A stretch of 64,000 nucleotides of DNA from Thermoplasmata archaeon (GTDB lineage: Archaea > Thermoplasmatota > Thermoplasmata > Methanomassiliicoccales > Methanomethylophilaceae). Shown piece after piece: positions 44,048 to 64,000 of the stretch (positions within the stretch are counted from its first letter, which is position 1; every line of letters starts with the position of its first letter). The position numbers and the translations under genes are program-made. Location: contig SUSW01000021.1 in NCBI GenBank assembly GCA_015063235.1, forward strand, positions 1-64,000, given 5' to 3'. Under the pieces are notes generated by a model that was not told the origin of the DNA, did no database searches, and saw nothing but the letters and a program-made list of their open reading frames with translations.

Positions 44048-44325
44048 GTTATCGCCGTAACTATCCATTGGATGGATGGATGCTCCATGTTGACGGATAT
44101 ATTGTACTACTCATTAAAAAATGTTGTAGTGTGCTGTTTTTATATTGATTATATCTATATTTAATGTTGAGAGCATCAATTTATTATGTTGAGGCTAACT
44201 TCAATTATGTTGACGAATCAATGATTTTATATAGTTATGGTGACATCTCAACATTAGACAGAACGGGACGAGCGCCCGAGAGTCAAAGGCCGCTTTTGCG
44301 GTGAAATAATGGAGGAATGAAAAAG
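44048..44325. promoter_or_regulatory. Divergent chlI/mttB control region with repeated ATGTTGA motif
   Basis: ATGTTGA occurs at 44087-44093, 44164-44170, 44186-44192 and 44207-44213, an ATGTTGT variant at 44121-44127, and the inverted TCAACAT at 44248-44254. The ATGTTGT copy lies in a dyad ACTAC...GTAGT (44106-44130). A TATA box TTTTATATAG at 44225-44234 puts the mttB start near 44258, next to the inverted copy. The mttB leader (about 44258-44325) contains a CCGC-TTTT-GCGG hairpin, then GGAGG before the ATG. Array-like repeats suggest cooperative binding by a regulator, such as the MarR protein encoded downstream of mttC (inference). Confidence 0.6.
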
Positions 44326-45825
44326 ATGGTAAGCAAGCACTACCCCGGAAGGCAGAAAACATCCGGAATCAAGATAGAGCTTTTTAGCGAAGACGACATC
44401 CGCGAGATCGATTACGCCACCAGAGATGTTCTGGCAAACTATGGAGTTCAGGTTTCCGATGAGGAAGGACTTCAGGTATTCAAGGACGCAGGATGTGAGG
44501 TCAACTTCGAGACCAAGATGGTCAAGATCCCCTCAAAGCTCATCAACATGGCTCTTGCAGCAGCCCCTAAGATGTTCTACCTTTACGGACGTGACGACGA
44601 GCACACCGTCCCCATGATCCACTCAGGACCCGTCTACTACACCAACTTCGGTACCGGAATCCAGATGTGCGACTACCTCGGAGACAACAAGTACAAGACA
44701 AGGGACTCCAACGAAGAGGACCTCGCCAACACAGCAAAGATCGTAGATGCTCTCCCCAACCTCGCAGTCTACTCCCTCGCAGTTTCCGCAAGGAACTGGG
44801 CTGGAGTCGGAGCTGAGGATGTCCACGAGATGATCACATCGATCAAGAACACATCCAAGCACTTCCACCACATCGACCCCGTTGCAGAGAACGTCGAGTT
44901 CTACTGGGAGATGCTCAAGGCATACTACGGCGGAGATGAAGAGATGGCACGCAACAGGCCCATCATGTCCATGCTTGTCTGCCCCACATCACCTCTCGAG
45001 CTGTCACACAACGCCGCTCAGGTCATCATGAAGGGAGCAAGGCTCGGAATCCCTGTCAAAGTCCTTTCAATGGCAATGGCTGGAGGATCCTCACCTATCC
45101 ACCTCACCGGAACACTCGTTACCCACAACGCTGAGATCCTCTCCGGTCTCGTACTGGCTCAGCTTGCCAACCCCGGAGCACGTGTTCTCTACGGAAGTTC
45201 AACAACAACATTCGACCTCAGGAACGGAACCGCACCTGTCGGATCACCTGAGCTCGCAGTCATCTCTGCAGCCGTCGCCAAGCTCGGACAGTACTACGGA
45301 CTGCCCGTCTTCACAGCCGGTATGTAGACCGACGCTAAGATCCCCGACTCCCAGGCAGCACACGAGAAGTCGATCACATCACTTCTCCCCGCAATGTCCG
45401 GTGTCAACCTCATCTACGGATCAGGTATGCTCGAGTTGGGACAGACCTTCTCCATGGAGCAGGTTTGCATCGATAACGATATCATCGAAATGAACTACAA
45501 AGCAATGGAAGGAGCCCCCGTCACAGACGAGACCCTGGCCGTTGACGCAATCAAGGAGATCGGAGTCGGAAACGATTTCCTTGCACACGAGACCACAATG
45601 GAGCACTTCGAGTCCGCATCCAACCCTAAACTGTTCGACAGGACAATGCTCGGAGAGTGGATGAACAACGGATCCAAGAGCTGTGTTGAGAGGGCTCACG
45701 ACATGGTCGTAGACATCATGGCCAACCACGTCGTCAAACCTATTCCCGAAGACCGCCTCGCAGCAATGGAGGAGGTCGTTAAACAGGCTGACGCCGCTTT
45801 CAGAAAGAGAAAAGGAATGGAGTGA
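44326..45825 (+). CDS. mttB: Trimethylamine:corrinoid methyltransferase with pyrrolysine at codon 334
   Basis: 499 residues if the in-frame TAG at 45325-45327 is read as pyrrolysine. Start at ATG 44326 (GGAGG 10 bases upstream); this makes the amber codon number 334, the known pyrrolysine position of MttB in Methanosarcina barkeri, which supports both start and identity. Flanking sequence LPVFTAGM[18 protein letters not shown] is family typical. The TIM-barrel enzyme transfers a methyl from trimethylamine to Co(I) of MttC, giving dimethylamine. An ATG three codons upstream lies too close to the ribosome site. Highly biased codons (GGA, ATC, AAG) indicate strong expression. Directly followed by mttC. 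Confidence 0.96.
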
Positions 45826-57193: not shown

Positions 57194-58024
57194 ATGGACG
57201 CCGTAGTGAAGGGTCGGAGGGGCAGGAAGAAATCGCCCGATAAGATTCACATCGGAAGAAAGGAGCCTCTGTCATATGCAGATGCGATAAGGACATCCCT
57301 GTCCAAAGAAAGGCACAGGATATTCTATGCCGAGAGCGACTGCACCGATTTCGCACCATTCGACAGGGAAGAAGGTTCCTTCCTCATCATCTCAGGCTAC
57401 TTCAAGGAGGCATCCAAATGCAGGGATTACCTGAATGCTCTGCCGGAGGATATCGACAGGAAACGTGTCATCTACATCCCTGTAAAAACGCTGGATGATG
57501 TCAAATCATTCAGGGAAGCGGTCGAAGGACTGGGTGCAGCGTTCCTATACGACGATCTGATGATATTCAAGGACGGGTCCCGTTACGTTTACGAGGCATC
57601 CGATATCCAGAAGGCGACATCTCCTGAGATTAGGGAGGAGATGGGAGGTTCTGACTTCTCCATCATGGGTTCTCCGTCGATAGACAAGGGGGGCATGTAC
57701 GATCATCTGAACAAGAACGTCCCGGCGGCAAATCTTGTCGTGGTGACAGGGATGTTCAACCTCAAACAAAGTGAATATAACATCAACTGGACATACTTGT
57801 GCAACATGGTCACCACATTCCCGGACGGAATGAGCGTCTTCAACGACCTTCGCAGCGACGTCAAATATGTGGATATCCCGCTGAAGCAGACCAGGTCCAT
57901 GTCGTTCCAGGACGGCACCATGATGATGAATGCCGAGGAGTACAGGGATTTCCTGAAGACCATCGGCATGCCTTCAGTATACAAGACGGACAAGGATGTG
58001 ACGGTCATCACCAAAGGAGGATAG
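57194..58024 (+). CDS. Unrecognised operon protein A (ends in TAG)
   Basis: 276 residues. A basic N-terminus (VVKGRRGRKKSPDK) precedes alpha/beta sequence (RIFYAESDCTDFAPFDREEGSFLIISGYF; VIYIPVKTLDDVKSFREAVEGLGAAFLYDD). No domain recognised. TATA-like CTTATAATAC lies 27 bases before ATG 57194. The stop is TAG (58022-58024), and the next gene starts three bases later in the same frame, so reading through would give a 468-residue fusion. A good GGAGG for the next gene overlaps the end, favouring ordinary termination. Confidence 0.6.
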   Translation: MDAVVKGRRGRKKSPDKIHIGRKEPLSYADAIRTSLSKERHRIFYAESDCTDFAPFDREEGSFLIISGYFKEASKCRDYLNALPEDIDRKRVIYIPVKTLDDVKSFREAVEGLGAAFLYDDLMIFKDGSRYVYEASDIQKATSPEIREEMGGSDFSIMGSPSIDKGGMYDHLNKNVPAANLVVVTGMFNLKQSEYNINWTYLCNMVTTFPDGMSVFNDLRSDVKYVDIPLKQTRSMSFQDGTMMMNAEEYRDFLKTIGMPSVYKTDKDVTVITKGG

Positions 58025-58027
58025 ACC

Positions 58028-58603
58028 ATGGTCTTCCTCACCATCAAGATCTTCACCTCAACAATCCTGGACGGCGGTACTCTGCTCAAGGTGGAGCACC
58101 CCAGGGATTACTTCATGGAGAATCTGGAAGCTTATGTGATGATGGCCAAGAAGGTCTACAGGGATTACTACCTTCAGCTCAAGAGCATCTCCGCAGCGGT
58201 GCGCCGTATCGGCGGCGCAGGAGACATCTCAGGATGTACGGTCGTTGTGGATGACAATCTTAAGATCATCCTTGATCCGACCGATATGCGCCCTGTGCTG
58301 TACCGTGCGGTCACAGGGGATCTGATCTATTACGAAAGTTTCCGCGCATCGGGGTTCCTGGACGACAAGTATGTGCTGCAGGACCGTCAGCTGGTGGCTG
58401 CACTAACACTTAAGAGTGTGACCTGGGATGTTCCGCCGCACCTATCCAGGAAGAGCATCCGCGATATGAACCATGTCTCGGAGGCCCTGCAGTCCATCAT
58501 CAGTCAGGATGTCGTCCGCAGATGGGACGACAGGATCCTTGATATGGATGCGACCTTGGAGACGATAATGATGAAGGCCGACAAGGAAGAGGAGGAGGAA
58601 TGA
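58028..58603 (+). CDS. Unrecognised operon protein B
   Basis: 191 residues, helical and mixed (LTIKIFTSTILDGGTLLKVEHPRDYFMENLEAYVMMAKKVYRDYYLQLKSI) with an acidic tail (KADKEEEEE). No family recognised. GGAGG seven bases upstream of the ATG. Second of four consecutive genes with no homology visible to me, which probably form a complex. Confidence 0.6.
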   Translation: MVFLTIKIFTSTILDGGTLLKVEHPRDYFMENLEAYVMMAKKVYRDYYLQLKSISAAVRRIGGAGDISGCTVVVDDNLKIILDPTDMRPVLYRAVTGDLIYYESFRASGFLDDKYVLQDRQLVAALTLKSVTWDVPPHLSRKSIRDMNHVSEALQSIISQDVVRRWDDRILDMDATLETIMMKADKEEEEE

Positions 58604-59586: not shown

Positions 59587-60369
59587 ATGGCAGACAATCA
59601 CTCGGAGCTTCTGGAGGCGTACAAGGATATCGCCTCGGTGCTGAACAGGCACGGAATTACTTTCTACGGTTTCTTCGGGACTGCCATAGGTGCGGTCAGG
59701 CACAAAGGATTCATCCCTTGGGACGATGACCTGGACATAGCGATATTAGCAAAGGATCTGGATGAGGTCAACCGCGTCCTATCGGAGGAGCTGGATCCTG
59801 CGAAATACTATTATCACAACCCCAGTGCCGACAGCCATCCGCACGTCATCATAAAGACCGATGATTTCGAGACCGTTCTGAGGAACAGGAAGGCCACGTT
59901 CATAGACGTCTTCGTCCTCACCGATTTCCCGGATTCGAAGATACGTCAGTACCTTATGTACCCGTTCTGCGGCTTCGAGCTCCTGTCGCACAAAATGATC
60001 GATGAGCACCCGGGTGTGAAGGGCCTCTTCTACGGCATAATGCACATCTCCAGGAAGTTCATCCGCATGATCTCCCAGAAGGATACCAAGAAGGTTAGCC
60101 ACCGTGCGGTCAAGGTCTGGGATAACACATGGTACCGCGAGGATTTCGGGACTCCGCTGATTGTGGATTTCGAGGACACCAAGATGCCGATCCCCTGCAA
60201 CTACGACCGTATCCTGACCGAGTTCTACGGAGATTATATGACACCTCCTCCGGAGGACAAAAGGTCTGGAGCCACAGGCTATCCGTACAGTCTGATGAGC
60301 GATTACCTCGAGGACATGTCAGGCGGGAAGAAGCATCCCAGGCTATCATCGGATGATCTGCCCTATTGA
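59587..60369 (+). CDS. LicD-family phosphotransferase
   Basis: 260 residues. The LicD nucleotidyltransferase-fold motif is intact: GITFYGFFGTAIGAVRHKGFIPWDDDLDIAILAKDLDEVNRVL (residues 23-64), with the catalytic Asp residues in WDDDLDI. The family transfers phosphocholine or similar groups to surface glycans. Start at 59587 has GGAG upstream; an ATG at 59518 overlapping gene D's stop would add 23 residues. Convergent with, and overlapping by 24 bases, the LRR protein gene. Confidence 0.85.
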   Translation: MADNHSELLEAYKDIASVLNRHGITFYGFFGTAIGAVRHKGFIPWDDDLDIAILAKDLDEVNRVLSEELDPAKYYYHNPSADSHPHVIIKTDDFETVLRNRKATFIDVFVLTDFPDSKIRQYLMYPFCGFELLSHKMIDEHPGVKGLFYGIMHISRKFIRMISQKDTKKVSHRAVKVWDNTWYREDFGTPLIVDFEDTKMPIPCNYDRILTEFYGDYMTPPPEDKRSGATGYPYSLMSDYLEDMSGGKKHPRLSSDDLPY

Positions 60370-62829
60370 TCGGTTTTCCCTGAACAGATCCCTGCCTTTC
60401 TTTGTGACAGTATCCGGGACGGAAGGTTCCAATGACCTGCAGCCGCGGAAGGCCTCGTCGCCTATCTCTTTCACACTGGGCGGCAGCATCATTTCCTTAA
60501 GTGATGTGCACCCGGCGAACGCACCTTTTCCGATGGATTCCAATCCCTGAGGGATATCGATACGGCTAAGGGATGAGCATCTGCTGAAGGTTCCGCCCTC
60601 TATCCTCTTCAGTGATTCGGGCAGGACGACGACAGCAAGGGAGGAGCAGTTCACCAATGCCCCTCCGCCCAGATGGACCAAAGAATCAGGGAAGCTCAAA
60701 GATGTGATGCTCCTGCATCCATCGAAAGCACTGTCACCGACAGTCTCTGTCCCCTCAGGTATCCTGATGTGTTCAAGGGAGATGCATCCGCGGAATGCAC
60801 CTTTTCCTATTATCCTGATCTCATCAGGCAATACTATGGTCCTCAAGGATTTGCAATCTGAAAACATGCAGTCCTCGATCGCTGTGATGCCTTCGGGGAT
60901 ATCGATTCTATGCAGAGAGCAGCAACCACGGAATGCGCTGTCCAGCATCTGAACCGTTCCGGAAGGGATGATCAATGATTCAAGGCCGGTGCAGGATTCG
61001 AATGCACAGCGGCCTATCTTCGTAACCGATTCGGGAATAGACACCGTCTTGAGGGAGACACATCCGAGGAACGTCTCATCTTCGATAACCTCCACCCCTT
61101 CAGGGATGGTTATCGATTCCAGCAAGGAACAGTTTCTGAAGGCACGCCTCCTGATGTGTCTGAGGCATTTTGGCAGGATGACCGATGTCAATGATGAGCA
61201 CCCGTCGAAGACGCCTGTTTCCAATTCCCGTATCTTAGGCGGTATCTTCATCGAGCTCAATTCCGAACAGCCTCCGAATGCCTGTCTGCCGATCCTTTCG
61301 ATGTTATCGTGCAAGGTTATCGATCTGAAGCAGCAACCCTCGAAAGCACCGTCCGCAACCGACGTGATCTCCTCAGGTATTTTGAATGACTTTTCGGGCC
61401 TCATGGCGGGGCAGCGGATAAGTGCAGCGGACTCCTTGCTGTACAGTGCACCGTTAACAGACTCAAGGCAGGGATTGCCTCCGCCGACCGATATCGTTTC
61501 AAGGCAAGTGCAGCCTTTGAACGAGTCAGGGGATACGGACCTGACGGAATCCGGGATTGAAACCTATACGAGGGATGAGCAATCTCTGAACAATGATCTC
61601 TCGATGACCTCCAGTTTTACCGGGATGTTGACCGTTTTCATTCTTTCGCATCCGTCGAATGCCCCTGCTCCTACCGATTCAACAGAATCCGGGATCACCA
61701 GCGATTCGAGTGCGCAGCCGGAGAATGATTTGACCCCTATCTTTATCAGACCGTCTTTCAGTTTGACTGTCCTGAGGCTTTTCGCTCCGGCCAGGGCAAA
61801 GTCGCCGATCTCTGAAACCTGGGGCAGTTCTATCTCGGTCAGGGATGAGCAGTTGCTGAGCAATCCGTTGCTGACAGTACCAATCCTCGGAGGGATGTGG
61901 ATGTAGGACATCCTGCGGTCATCTTTAAAGGCCCAGGTACCCACTGATATCACGCTATCGGGGATGTCGATCCTTCTCAGGCGGATGCATCTCTCGAATG
62001 CCCAGTCTCCGATGGATTCCAGACCATCGCAGAGCTTCACGGATTCCAGACCCTCGCATCTGCTGAATGCCAGTCTGCCGATTGTCTTCACGGAAGAAGG
62101 GATCGATACAAATCTGAGCGCCTTACATCCGAAGAAAGCAGAATCTCCGATGTTCCCGATGCCTTGGGGGATCCCGACGTACGTAAGCGATGTGCACTGT
62201 CTGAAGACGGAGTCTCTCAGATCTCTGAGGTTTTTGGGGATGTTAACGGATCCAAGGCGGTTACAGCTTCTGAAGGCATATTCTCCAATAATCGTCACGT
62301 TCTCGGGGATCCTCATCGATGTCAGTGAACTGCAGTGTTCGAAAGCATGCTCTCCGATGTTCTCCAGCTTCTGCGGTAATATGACCTGATTGAGGTGGGT
62401 GCAGCGGCTGAAAGCGCCATTACCTACGGTCCGGACGATTTCAGGAATCTTATATCCTTTAGTTTGCTTGGAAGGAGGGTATCTGAGAAGTTTTGTCATA
62501 CTCTTGTTGAAGAGTATGTCCTGGAACGAACGGAATCTTTTGTTCTTTGATGATACGTTCAAGCGTAACAGGCGGGGGCATCCGGTGAGAGAATTCTCCC
62601 CTATCTTCGATACCGTTGATGGAATTTTTACGGTCTTAAGGAATTCACATCCGTAGAATGCATATCTGCCGATGGATGTTATCCCTTCCTCAATGACTAC
62701 CTTTTTCACCTTCTTGGAGATCCAGGGCGCCTCGGATCCGTACACATCATTGAACCTGAAGTCCTTCATGGGACCGGAACCGCAGATAGTGAGGACACCT
62801 TCCCTGTCGATGCTCCATCTCAAATTCAT
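60346..62829 (-). CDS. Large BspA-type leucine-rich-repeat protein with in-frame TAG
   Basis: 827 codons in one frame from ATG 62829, interrupted only by TAG at codon 422 (61564-61566). Up to it run LRR_5 repeats of about 23 residues (FYGCEFLKTVKIPSTVSKIGENSLTGC...). After it: VSIPDSVRSVSPDSFKGCTCLETISVGGG, a YSKESAALIRCPA segment, and further repeats to position 60346. The TAG occupies exactly one repeat residue (CSSLV-x-VSIPDSV, where relatives have Lys/Ser or similar), so translation past it leaves the solenoid in register. If terminated, residues 1-421 would form a shorter protein. No membrane anchor or signal peptide is evident. BspA-like proteins of gut microbes are surface or secreted adhesins. 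Confidence 0.8.
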
Positions 62830-62879
62830 TAGAAATACCACTTCACGGCGAAATACCGAATCACAGTTAATATAAGGTT

Positions 62880-63290
62880 GCGGCGGAGTCGAACCGCCCA
62901 CCTAGTTGCCTAGATGCCCACCGGGGTTGTGTCGGCTGAGTGGCATTGCTGCTGCTCGGACCGACTGATAGCCGTGTTGAGCTATACGCTCTTATCACGC
63001 CCTATCGGCGAACCCATCGCCGTTAAGCTTCGGGCCGCGTGCACACGTGTACCCTTGCGGGCTTTCACGCTGTGCCTGTCTACGTGTACGACGGATGTCG
63101 CTGTCACGCCAGACTGCTCCGGGATGTTGCCATCGCGGAGCGTGTTAACAGGAGGGGGCTTATGCCCCAACGGCCATATGGCCGATACCCATATGGGCTG
63201 TTAACACTCCCCCATTGCCTTCCTTGCGGAGACGGGGACCTATTCCGCTGGAGCGGAATATCAGAAACTACGTGAGTTCAGATATGTTAG
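62880..63290 (-). ncRNA. Large structured RNA with five GCAA tetraloops and T-arm-like 3' hairpin
   Basis: No coding character; in minus-strand order the helices are: GCGGAAT-type hairpin (63259-63242); TCC-GCAA-GGA in a CCCC/GGGG stem (63237-63209); a 10-bp stem GTGTTAACAG/CTGTTAACAC (63207-63198 and 63151-63142) enclosing three hairpins, CCCATATGGG, GGCCATATGGCC and GGGGC-ATAA-GCCCC; GCTCCG...GATG-GCAA-CATC (63141-63116); CGAC-ATCC-GTCG; GCGTG...CCC-GCAA-GGG (63070-63037); GGCGA-TGGGT-TCGCC; GAGC-GTATA-GCTC; GTCGG...GCA-GCAA-TGC (62965-62931); CATCTAG-GCAA-CTAGGTG (62916-62899); and GGCGG-TTCGACT-CCGCC (62898-62882), which mimics a tRNA T-arm. A minus-strand TATA box (TTTTATACTGC, about 63322-63312) fits a start near 63290. 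It matches neither RNase P (no GAGGAAAGUCC/ACAGAAA) nor SRP RNA that I can recognise. Confidence 0.75.
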
Positions 63291-63366: not shown

Positions 63367-64000
63367 TCACAGCTGCTCTCTCAGTAAATCACAGAGCGGG
63401 TTGGCCACATGCCATATCATTACCGGAGGCACCGCATTGCCGAGAGCATGGTATTGGTATTTTCCTCCTCCTGTCAGTGTGAAAGAATCAGGGAAGCCCT
63501 GTATCCTTGCCACCTCCCTCTGGGTAAAGCGTCTTAGTCCGCCTTCCGTTTCAAGGACCGGATCGGAGCTGTTGAGAGAGGTTTTCCACAGGTGCGAACC
63601 GATGGTTCTGCAAGGCTTCGACGGATCTTGGATATGATATTTCCTTTCGCTCTTCTTCTTCCTCAACTGTCTGTCTACGCTATCTCTGCTGTAATGGTAT
63701 CTTTCAGGGACGTCCTGCTCCAGCACAGATGACAGCGGCTCAGGATGGTTGGAGCGCCTGATAGTTCCGAAGGAGAATTCCGCAGGAACGTCTTTACGAA
63801 TCCCGACCATGATGACCCTTTGGCGTTTCTGCGGAATACCGAATTGTGAAGCATCCATTATCGAAGAGACCACCTCATACCCGCAGTTCCTGAATTCCGA
63901 GATTATCAACGGAAATGCCTCGCCGTCGTTGGCGGTCAGCAGCCCCGGCACATTCTCCGCTATGAAGCATAAGGGCTGTTTATCCCTGATGATACGGCAC
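63367..64000 (-). CDS. C5-cytosine DNA methyltransferase (partial, N-terminus outside window)
   Basis: The last 211 codons are visible. Motif VI ENVPGLLTANDGE, motif VIII QKRQRVIMVGI, target-recognition region, motif IX TQREVARIQGFPDSFTLTG, motif X ALGNAVPPVM. It continues past the right window edge, where motifs I and IV must lie. The reading frame is intact in the visible part. Distinct in sequence from the methyltransferase at 15689, so the organism carries at least two C5 enzymes. A partner endonuclease would be expected beyond the edge, or the gene is solitary. Confidence 0.9.
   Translation of the reverse strand, partial: CRIIRDKQPLCFIAENVPGLLTANDGEAFPLIISEFRNCGYEVVSSIMDASQFGIPQKRQRVIMVGIRKDVPAEFSFGTIRRSNHPEPLSSVLEQDVPERYHYSRDSVDRQLRKKKSERKYHIQDPSKPCRTIGSHLWKTSLNSSDPVLETEGGLRRFTQREVARIQGFPDSFTLTGGGKYQYHALGNAVPPVMIWHVANPLCDLLREQL

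Follow-up and report, generated by a model that had tools for sequence, protein, structure and literature searches.

Does the in-frame TAG at codon 422 of the LRR_5 gene in the window (the whole stretch of 64,000 nucleotides analysed here, contig C16 of the host genome, G000) end a protein of 421 residues, or is it translated, and as what? The host genome is a draft of 1.78 Mb in 54 contigs, 87% complete. The features on which the analysis relies are collected in Table 1.

Table 1. Coordinates of the LRR_5 gene, of other genes with an in-frame TAG and of neighbouring genes. Positions without a prefix are those of the window.
Feature	Position	Strand	Remarks
LRR_5 gene	62829..60346	minus	827 codons, ATG 62829, TGA 60348-60346, one TAG predicted to be read through
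In-frame TAG, codon 422, predicted pyrrolysine	61564..61566	minus	ACC (Thr) in the G012 homologue
mttB, trimethylamine methyltransferase, TAG at 45325-45327	44317..45825	plus	MTTB 302 bits; positive control in the window
Gene, family not assigned, TAG at 58022-58024	57194..58603	plus	G024 homologue with Tyr at the site
Na/Pi cotransporter-PhoU gene	L086:1546-3183 (G000 contig C30), L092-L112		in-frame TAG
DNA cytosine-5 methyltransferase gene, 3' part	63367..64000	minus	continues to about 64366
G012 cytosine-5 DNA methyltransferase	L066:494-1513		beside the LRR homologue

One LRR_5 frame on both sides of the TAG

Exactly one stop triplet lies inside the 827-codon frame, the TAG at codon 422 (61566-61564). 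The repeats keep the same register and the same frame on either side of it, and the read-through product scores 613 bits against Pfam LRR_5 (gathering score 27.7), i.e. it belongs to the BspA-type LRR_5 family. The earlier note had taken the two halves for one continuous solenoid in one frame. This holds: the open frame, read through the TAG, specifies one 827-residue BspA-type solenoid. Most genes have a higher coding score per codon than this one (34 over 421 codons, 15 over 405).

The nearest solved folds are the BspA-type LRR proteins 4fs7, 4gt6 and 4h09, and the alignment with the LRR_5 protein 4gt6 runs across the TAG site (query 419-627). In a single-sequence AlphaFold model of modest confidence (mean pLDDT 71), for which Lys was substituted at the TAG, residue 422 is predicted to start a short strand and the solenoid to continue beyond it; the less certain part of the model, residues 449-479, is a loop insertion away from the TAG.

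The protein contains some 28 repeats with the pattern C..L.x[VIML].[IL]P, among them CSSLV-O-VSIP, in which codon 422 provides the x of CSSLV-x-VSIP. Elsewhere this column holds S, T, R, Y, E, Q, F, H and other residues. Thus, as had been proposed, the TAG stands in place of one variable repeat residue, and the column that holds it is, by its sequence, a tolerant one.

A homologue with a sense codon at site 422

Among 147 genomes of the order the LRR_5 protein has a sole close full-length homologue, in a genome of the same genus (G012). The two proteins have the same start and are 40% identical over residues 1-809, almost gap-free, with both halves covered. At its own codon 422 the homologue has ACC (Thr) and reads across the site as a single frame. 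It carries one internal TAG of its own, at its codon 611 in an AF-x-GC column where the host gene has GAA (Glu), and no TAA, TGA or frameshift before its end.

First and second codon positions of the two LRR genes are 53-68% identical and third positions 30-33%. Identity and codon-position pattern are alike in the three parts into which the two TAGs divide the alignment; both genes thus evolved as one reading frame. That one frame spans TAG 422 is more than chance, since both halves match one homologue with a uniform codon-position pattern. Orthologues with the halves as separate genes, the outcome that would have spoken against the earlier note, were looked for in these genomes and none was found. 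Much of the shared codon history may nevertheless predate both TAGs, and the comparison is therefore better evidence for a single gene than for the age of the read-through.

TAG 422 is not shared by this only close homologue among the 147 genomes; conservation of the TAG is expected of functional Pyl sites only and not of neutral ones. Present in one genome and faced by a sense codon in the only homologue, TAG 422 could be recent. A conserved catalytic Pyl site at this position is rejected, given the Thr of the G012 protein and its own TAG elsewhere. Bacterial LRR matches, at 28-30% identity, are uninformative, and a search for viral relatives gave only one unrelated phage LRR protein.

Pyrrolysine machinery and use of TAG in the host genome

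Contig C47 of the host genome carries a tRNA-Pyl with anticodon CTA together with the pyl genes, each above its curated cut-off (PylS 261 bits, PylB 439, PylC 317, PylD 199). The organism thus has tRNA-Pyl(CUA), pylS and pylBCD. Two mtmB genes with an in-frame TAG adjoin this set. Together with the methylamine genes, the pyl set suggests that the host belongs to the Methanomassiliicoccales. No further CTA tRNA was found in a 446-kb sample of the genome, about a quarter of it. This sample comprises the contigs that hold the window and the pyl genes, together with stretches from elsewhere, several of which were picked for their LRR genes; it is thus partly centred on LRR genes and on the pyl cluster.

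The 340 genes of this sample, called by codon-usage score, stop at TGA (291), TAA (38) or TAG (11). For 8 of the 11 TAG cases coding continues in frame after the TAG: mttB, the two mtmB, the Na/Pi cotransporter-PhoU gene, a TerB_N gene, the gene at 57194-58603, a gene of contig C1 and the LRR gene. A terminal TAG without coding continuation is therefore left in 3 of the 340 genes predicted in this quarter of the genome, and each of the three is followed by TGA or TAA (after 7, 7 and 23 codons). The situation is different in a genome of the same order with no PylS match above the cut-off (G041), where TAG ends 27 of 191 genes and coding continues after none of them (8/11 vs 0/27, p=3e-6).

In-frame TAGs lie inside matches to MttB, MtmB (two), PhoU, TerB_N and LRR_5. 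As a control, 14 genes ended by TGA or TAA and followed by a coding-like continuation were compared with Pfam, and no domain spans their stop; most are two complete neighbouring genes and a few have no informative domain. That TGA or TAA acts as sense like TAG is therefore rejected. In a 107-kb sample of G012, in-frame TAGs like those of the host occur in genes that include mtmB and the Na/Pi and LRR genes. Taken on its sequence, the host genome appears to use UAG nearly always as sense and almost never as a terminator.

In-frame TAGs in other genes

The same pattern had been said to recur in unrelated genes. It does so in the window, in mttB and in the gene at 57194-58603, and further elsewhere in the genome. 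The TAG of mttB coincides with a match to PYLIS_3 (45325-45424, 74.3 bits); at TAG 422, Rfam gives no match to a PYLIS-type signal. For the gene at 57194-58603 there is a single relative, in G024: an uninterrupted ORF that encodes Tyr at the TAG site. In nine species of the genus the TAG of the Na/Pi cotransporter-PhoU gene falls in exactly the same alignment column, where the others have Lys or Glu; it is a conserved predicted Pyl site outside the methyltransferases. On comparison alone, these two genes show that TAG is swapped with sense codons in this genus.

Two further genes are recorded as observations. In the TerB_N protein (L005:4309-6620, minus strand) a PADLOC match to SngA spans the in-frame TAG at residue 405, and the name SngA suggests a Shango defence system. 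The gene at L083:8191-8919, family not assigned, has an in-frame TAG followed by a coding continuation of 87 codons.

Reading of UAG 422

Given that the Pyl set is complete and that other genes have TAGs within conserved domains, TAG 422 would be expected to be read. The reading that we favour, with a probability of about 0.85, is that a pyrrolysine is inserted at UAG 422, a tolerant site, to give the 827-residue product; a codon with a sense meaning in nearly all cases would here be used neutrally. The decoder of UAG 422 would be tRNA-Pyl(CUA), loaded by PylS with the pyrrolysine that PylB, PylC and PylD make. Translation would then run to the UGA at 60346 and would need no cis signal at UAG 422. 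Residue 422 would occupy a tolerant, probably solvent-exposed repeat position. A TAG mutation there would cost little and persist, since UAG seems almost out of use as a terminator in the lineage.

Pyrrolysine read-through was already the proposal of the earlier note, and it now has the support, at the level of sequence, of the full pyl set, of TAG being almost never a terminator, of the TAGs inside conserved domains and of the sense codon in G012. What is observed is the open frame, the homologue, the pyl genes and how TAG is used in the sampled quarter; from these we infer that pyrrolysine is actually incorporated and that its presence is neutral: pyrrolysine 422 most likely has no catalytic role and is a neutral substitution.

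Three other explanations were weighed. It is unlikely that release factor and Pyl-tRNA share UAG 422, giving forms of 421 and 827 residues in a ratio set by methylamine supply and Pyl level. Pyl insertion has indeed been proposed to depend on competition with release factors, and Acetohalobium arabaticum reads UAG as Pyl only on trimethylamine (PMC8211752); the lack of a PYLIS-like match at TAG 422 would also fit. But terminator TAG has nearly gone from the sample, each remaining case having a close backup stop, and rare use of TAG as a stop has been read as pointing to decoding that is constitutive and efficient (PMC4153887). Nor does position 422 show any sign of a module boundary, and the G012 TAG is elsewhere.

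We hold it improbable that the gene, coding for a dispensable repeat protein, has suffered an ordinary nonsense mutation and is a young pseudogene truncated at residue 421. The 405 downstream codons show no second lesion, the G012 homologue likewise has its one internal TAG and no other interruption, and this explanation would leave aside the complete Pyl set and the TAGs inside conserved domains of other genes, one of them across nine species. The restriction of TAG 422 to the host genome and the accessory nature of LRR_5 genes speak for it, as does the mutational spectrum: 13 of the 21 transition routes to a stop in the LRR gene yield TAG, and with this share TAG in 5/5 non-methyltransferase interruptions is, taken alone, no rare outcome (p about 0.09). 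The least probable explanation is an error of assembly or sequencing, codon 422 being in truth a sense codon. The draft state of the assembly and a site known from a single genome would allow it, but independent genomes repeatedly show interruptions by TAG alone, nine assemblies agree on the Na/Pi TAG, and random errors would also produce TAA, TGA and frameshifts.

Cellular location of the LRR protein

The protein had been called probably a surface protein, and this part does not stand. The maximal hydropathy over 19 residues at the N-terminus is 0.18 for the LRR protein and 0.43 for its G012 homologue, as against 2.2-2.9 for the seven other LRR_5 proteins of the sampled DNA, all of which (7/7) have a strong N-terminal hydrophobic segment. 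By hydropathy neither the LRR protein nor its homologue has a signal peptide or membrane segment, and the LRR protein has none at its C-terminus; with neither signal peptide nor anchor, a surface location is rejected. Because it is devoid of the hydrophobic N-terminal segment seen in the seven others, we infer that the LRR protein is probably cytoplasmic.

Relation to known systems

An archaeal "Pyl code", in which TAG is read as Pyl throughout, was reportedly described in Science in 2025 with proteomic support. The host genome resembles it in that TAG would act as a sense codon in many unrelated proteins, and differs from it in the three TAG ends with nearby backup stops that remain in the sample. 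Like MtmB, MtbB and MttB, the last of which is encoded in this window, the LRR protein has an in-frame TAG and would depend on the same tRNA-Pyl decoder. The Pyl of these methyltransferases is a catalytic, conserved active-site residue, whereas LRR site 422 is variable and not conserved. With the BspA-type LRR_5 proteins (4fs7, 4gt6, 4h09; NCBIfam HupY/LrrG) the LRR protein shares the repeat family and the kind of fold; it differs from them by the lack of a signal peptide or anchor, by the interrupting TAG and by a score far below the HupY cut-off.

In "Candidatus Methanomethylophilus alvus", 16 non-methyltransferase Pyl proteins were predicted, TAG makes up 1.6% of stops, and in-frame amber mutations were argued to be stable in a cell of this type (Borrel 2014, PMC4153887). 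Pyl-containing proteins other than methyltransferases were thus already predicted there in 2014 (PMC4153887), and the LRR gene would be a further example. Both organisms probably belong to the same order and have TAG-interrupted genes with homology on both sides and very low use of TAG as a stop (PMC4153887). The 16 listed proteins (PMC4153887, Table 7) include neither an LRR protein nor a Na/Pi cotransporter or TerB protein; added here are homologues with sense codons and a TAG conserved in nine species. Pyl has also been described in the tRNA-His guanylyltransferase Thg1, under neutral evolution according to the title of the report (Heinemann 2009, cited in PMC4153887, PMC8211752). Thg1 is like the LRR case a protein unrelated to methylamine use, and unlike it in being a different protein and in that the LRR homologue has its TAG elsewhere.

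Gene finders split TAG-read-through genes in two. If TAG generally means pyrrolysine in these methanogens, the annotation of many proteins of the lineage is in error, and the need of pyrrolysine for growth may extend well beyond methylamine use. Two genes offer clean test cases: the LRR gene for a TAG accepted at a tolerant site, and the Na/Pi gene for a TAG kept in nine species where others have Lys or Glu.

Neighbourhood of the LRR gene

In each of the two genomes with the LRR gene, a cytosine-5 DNA methyltransferase gene adjoins it; this is the only shared neighbour. The two methyltransferases are 63% identical, and the gene order relative to the LRR gene is opposite. If its two terminal TAGs were also read, the G012 LRR frame would end at a TGA overlapping the methyltransferase start. 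At the cut-off used, just one more of the 147 genomes has the methyltransferase (G069), on a short contig that ends about 340 bases downstream, and no LRR gene lies upstream of it. An obligate LRR-methyltransferase pair is weakened by this case; a functional link is possible. It is very improbable that codon 422 is a regulated switch, giving the full solenoid in the presence of methylamine and pyrrolysine and the 421-residue half in their absence, with the LRR protein working together with the adjacent methyltransferase. Were it true, a DNA-modification cassette would be tied to the pyrrolysine supply of the cell.

The gap of about 535 bases upstream of the LRR gene gave no Rfam match to a structured RNA. 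Just upstream of the LRR gene both genomes have a sequence resembling a tRNA T-arm, GGCGGTTCGACTCCGCC (minus strand), at 62876-62900 in the window, where neither Rfam nor ARAGORN gives a match to it, and near L066:3970-4015. In G012, a tRNA and an integrase also lie near this sequence.
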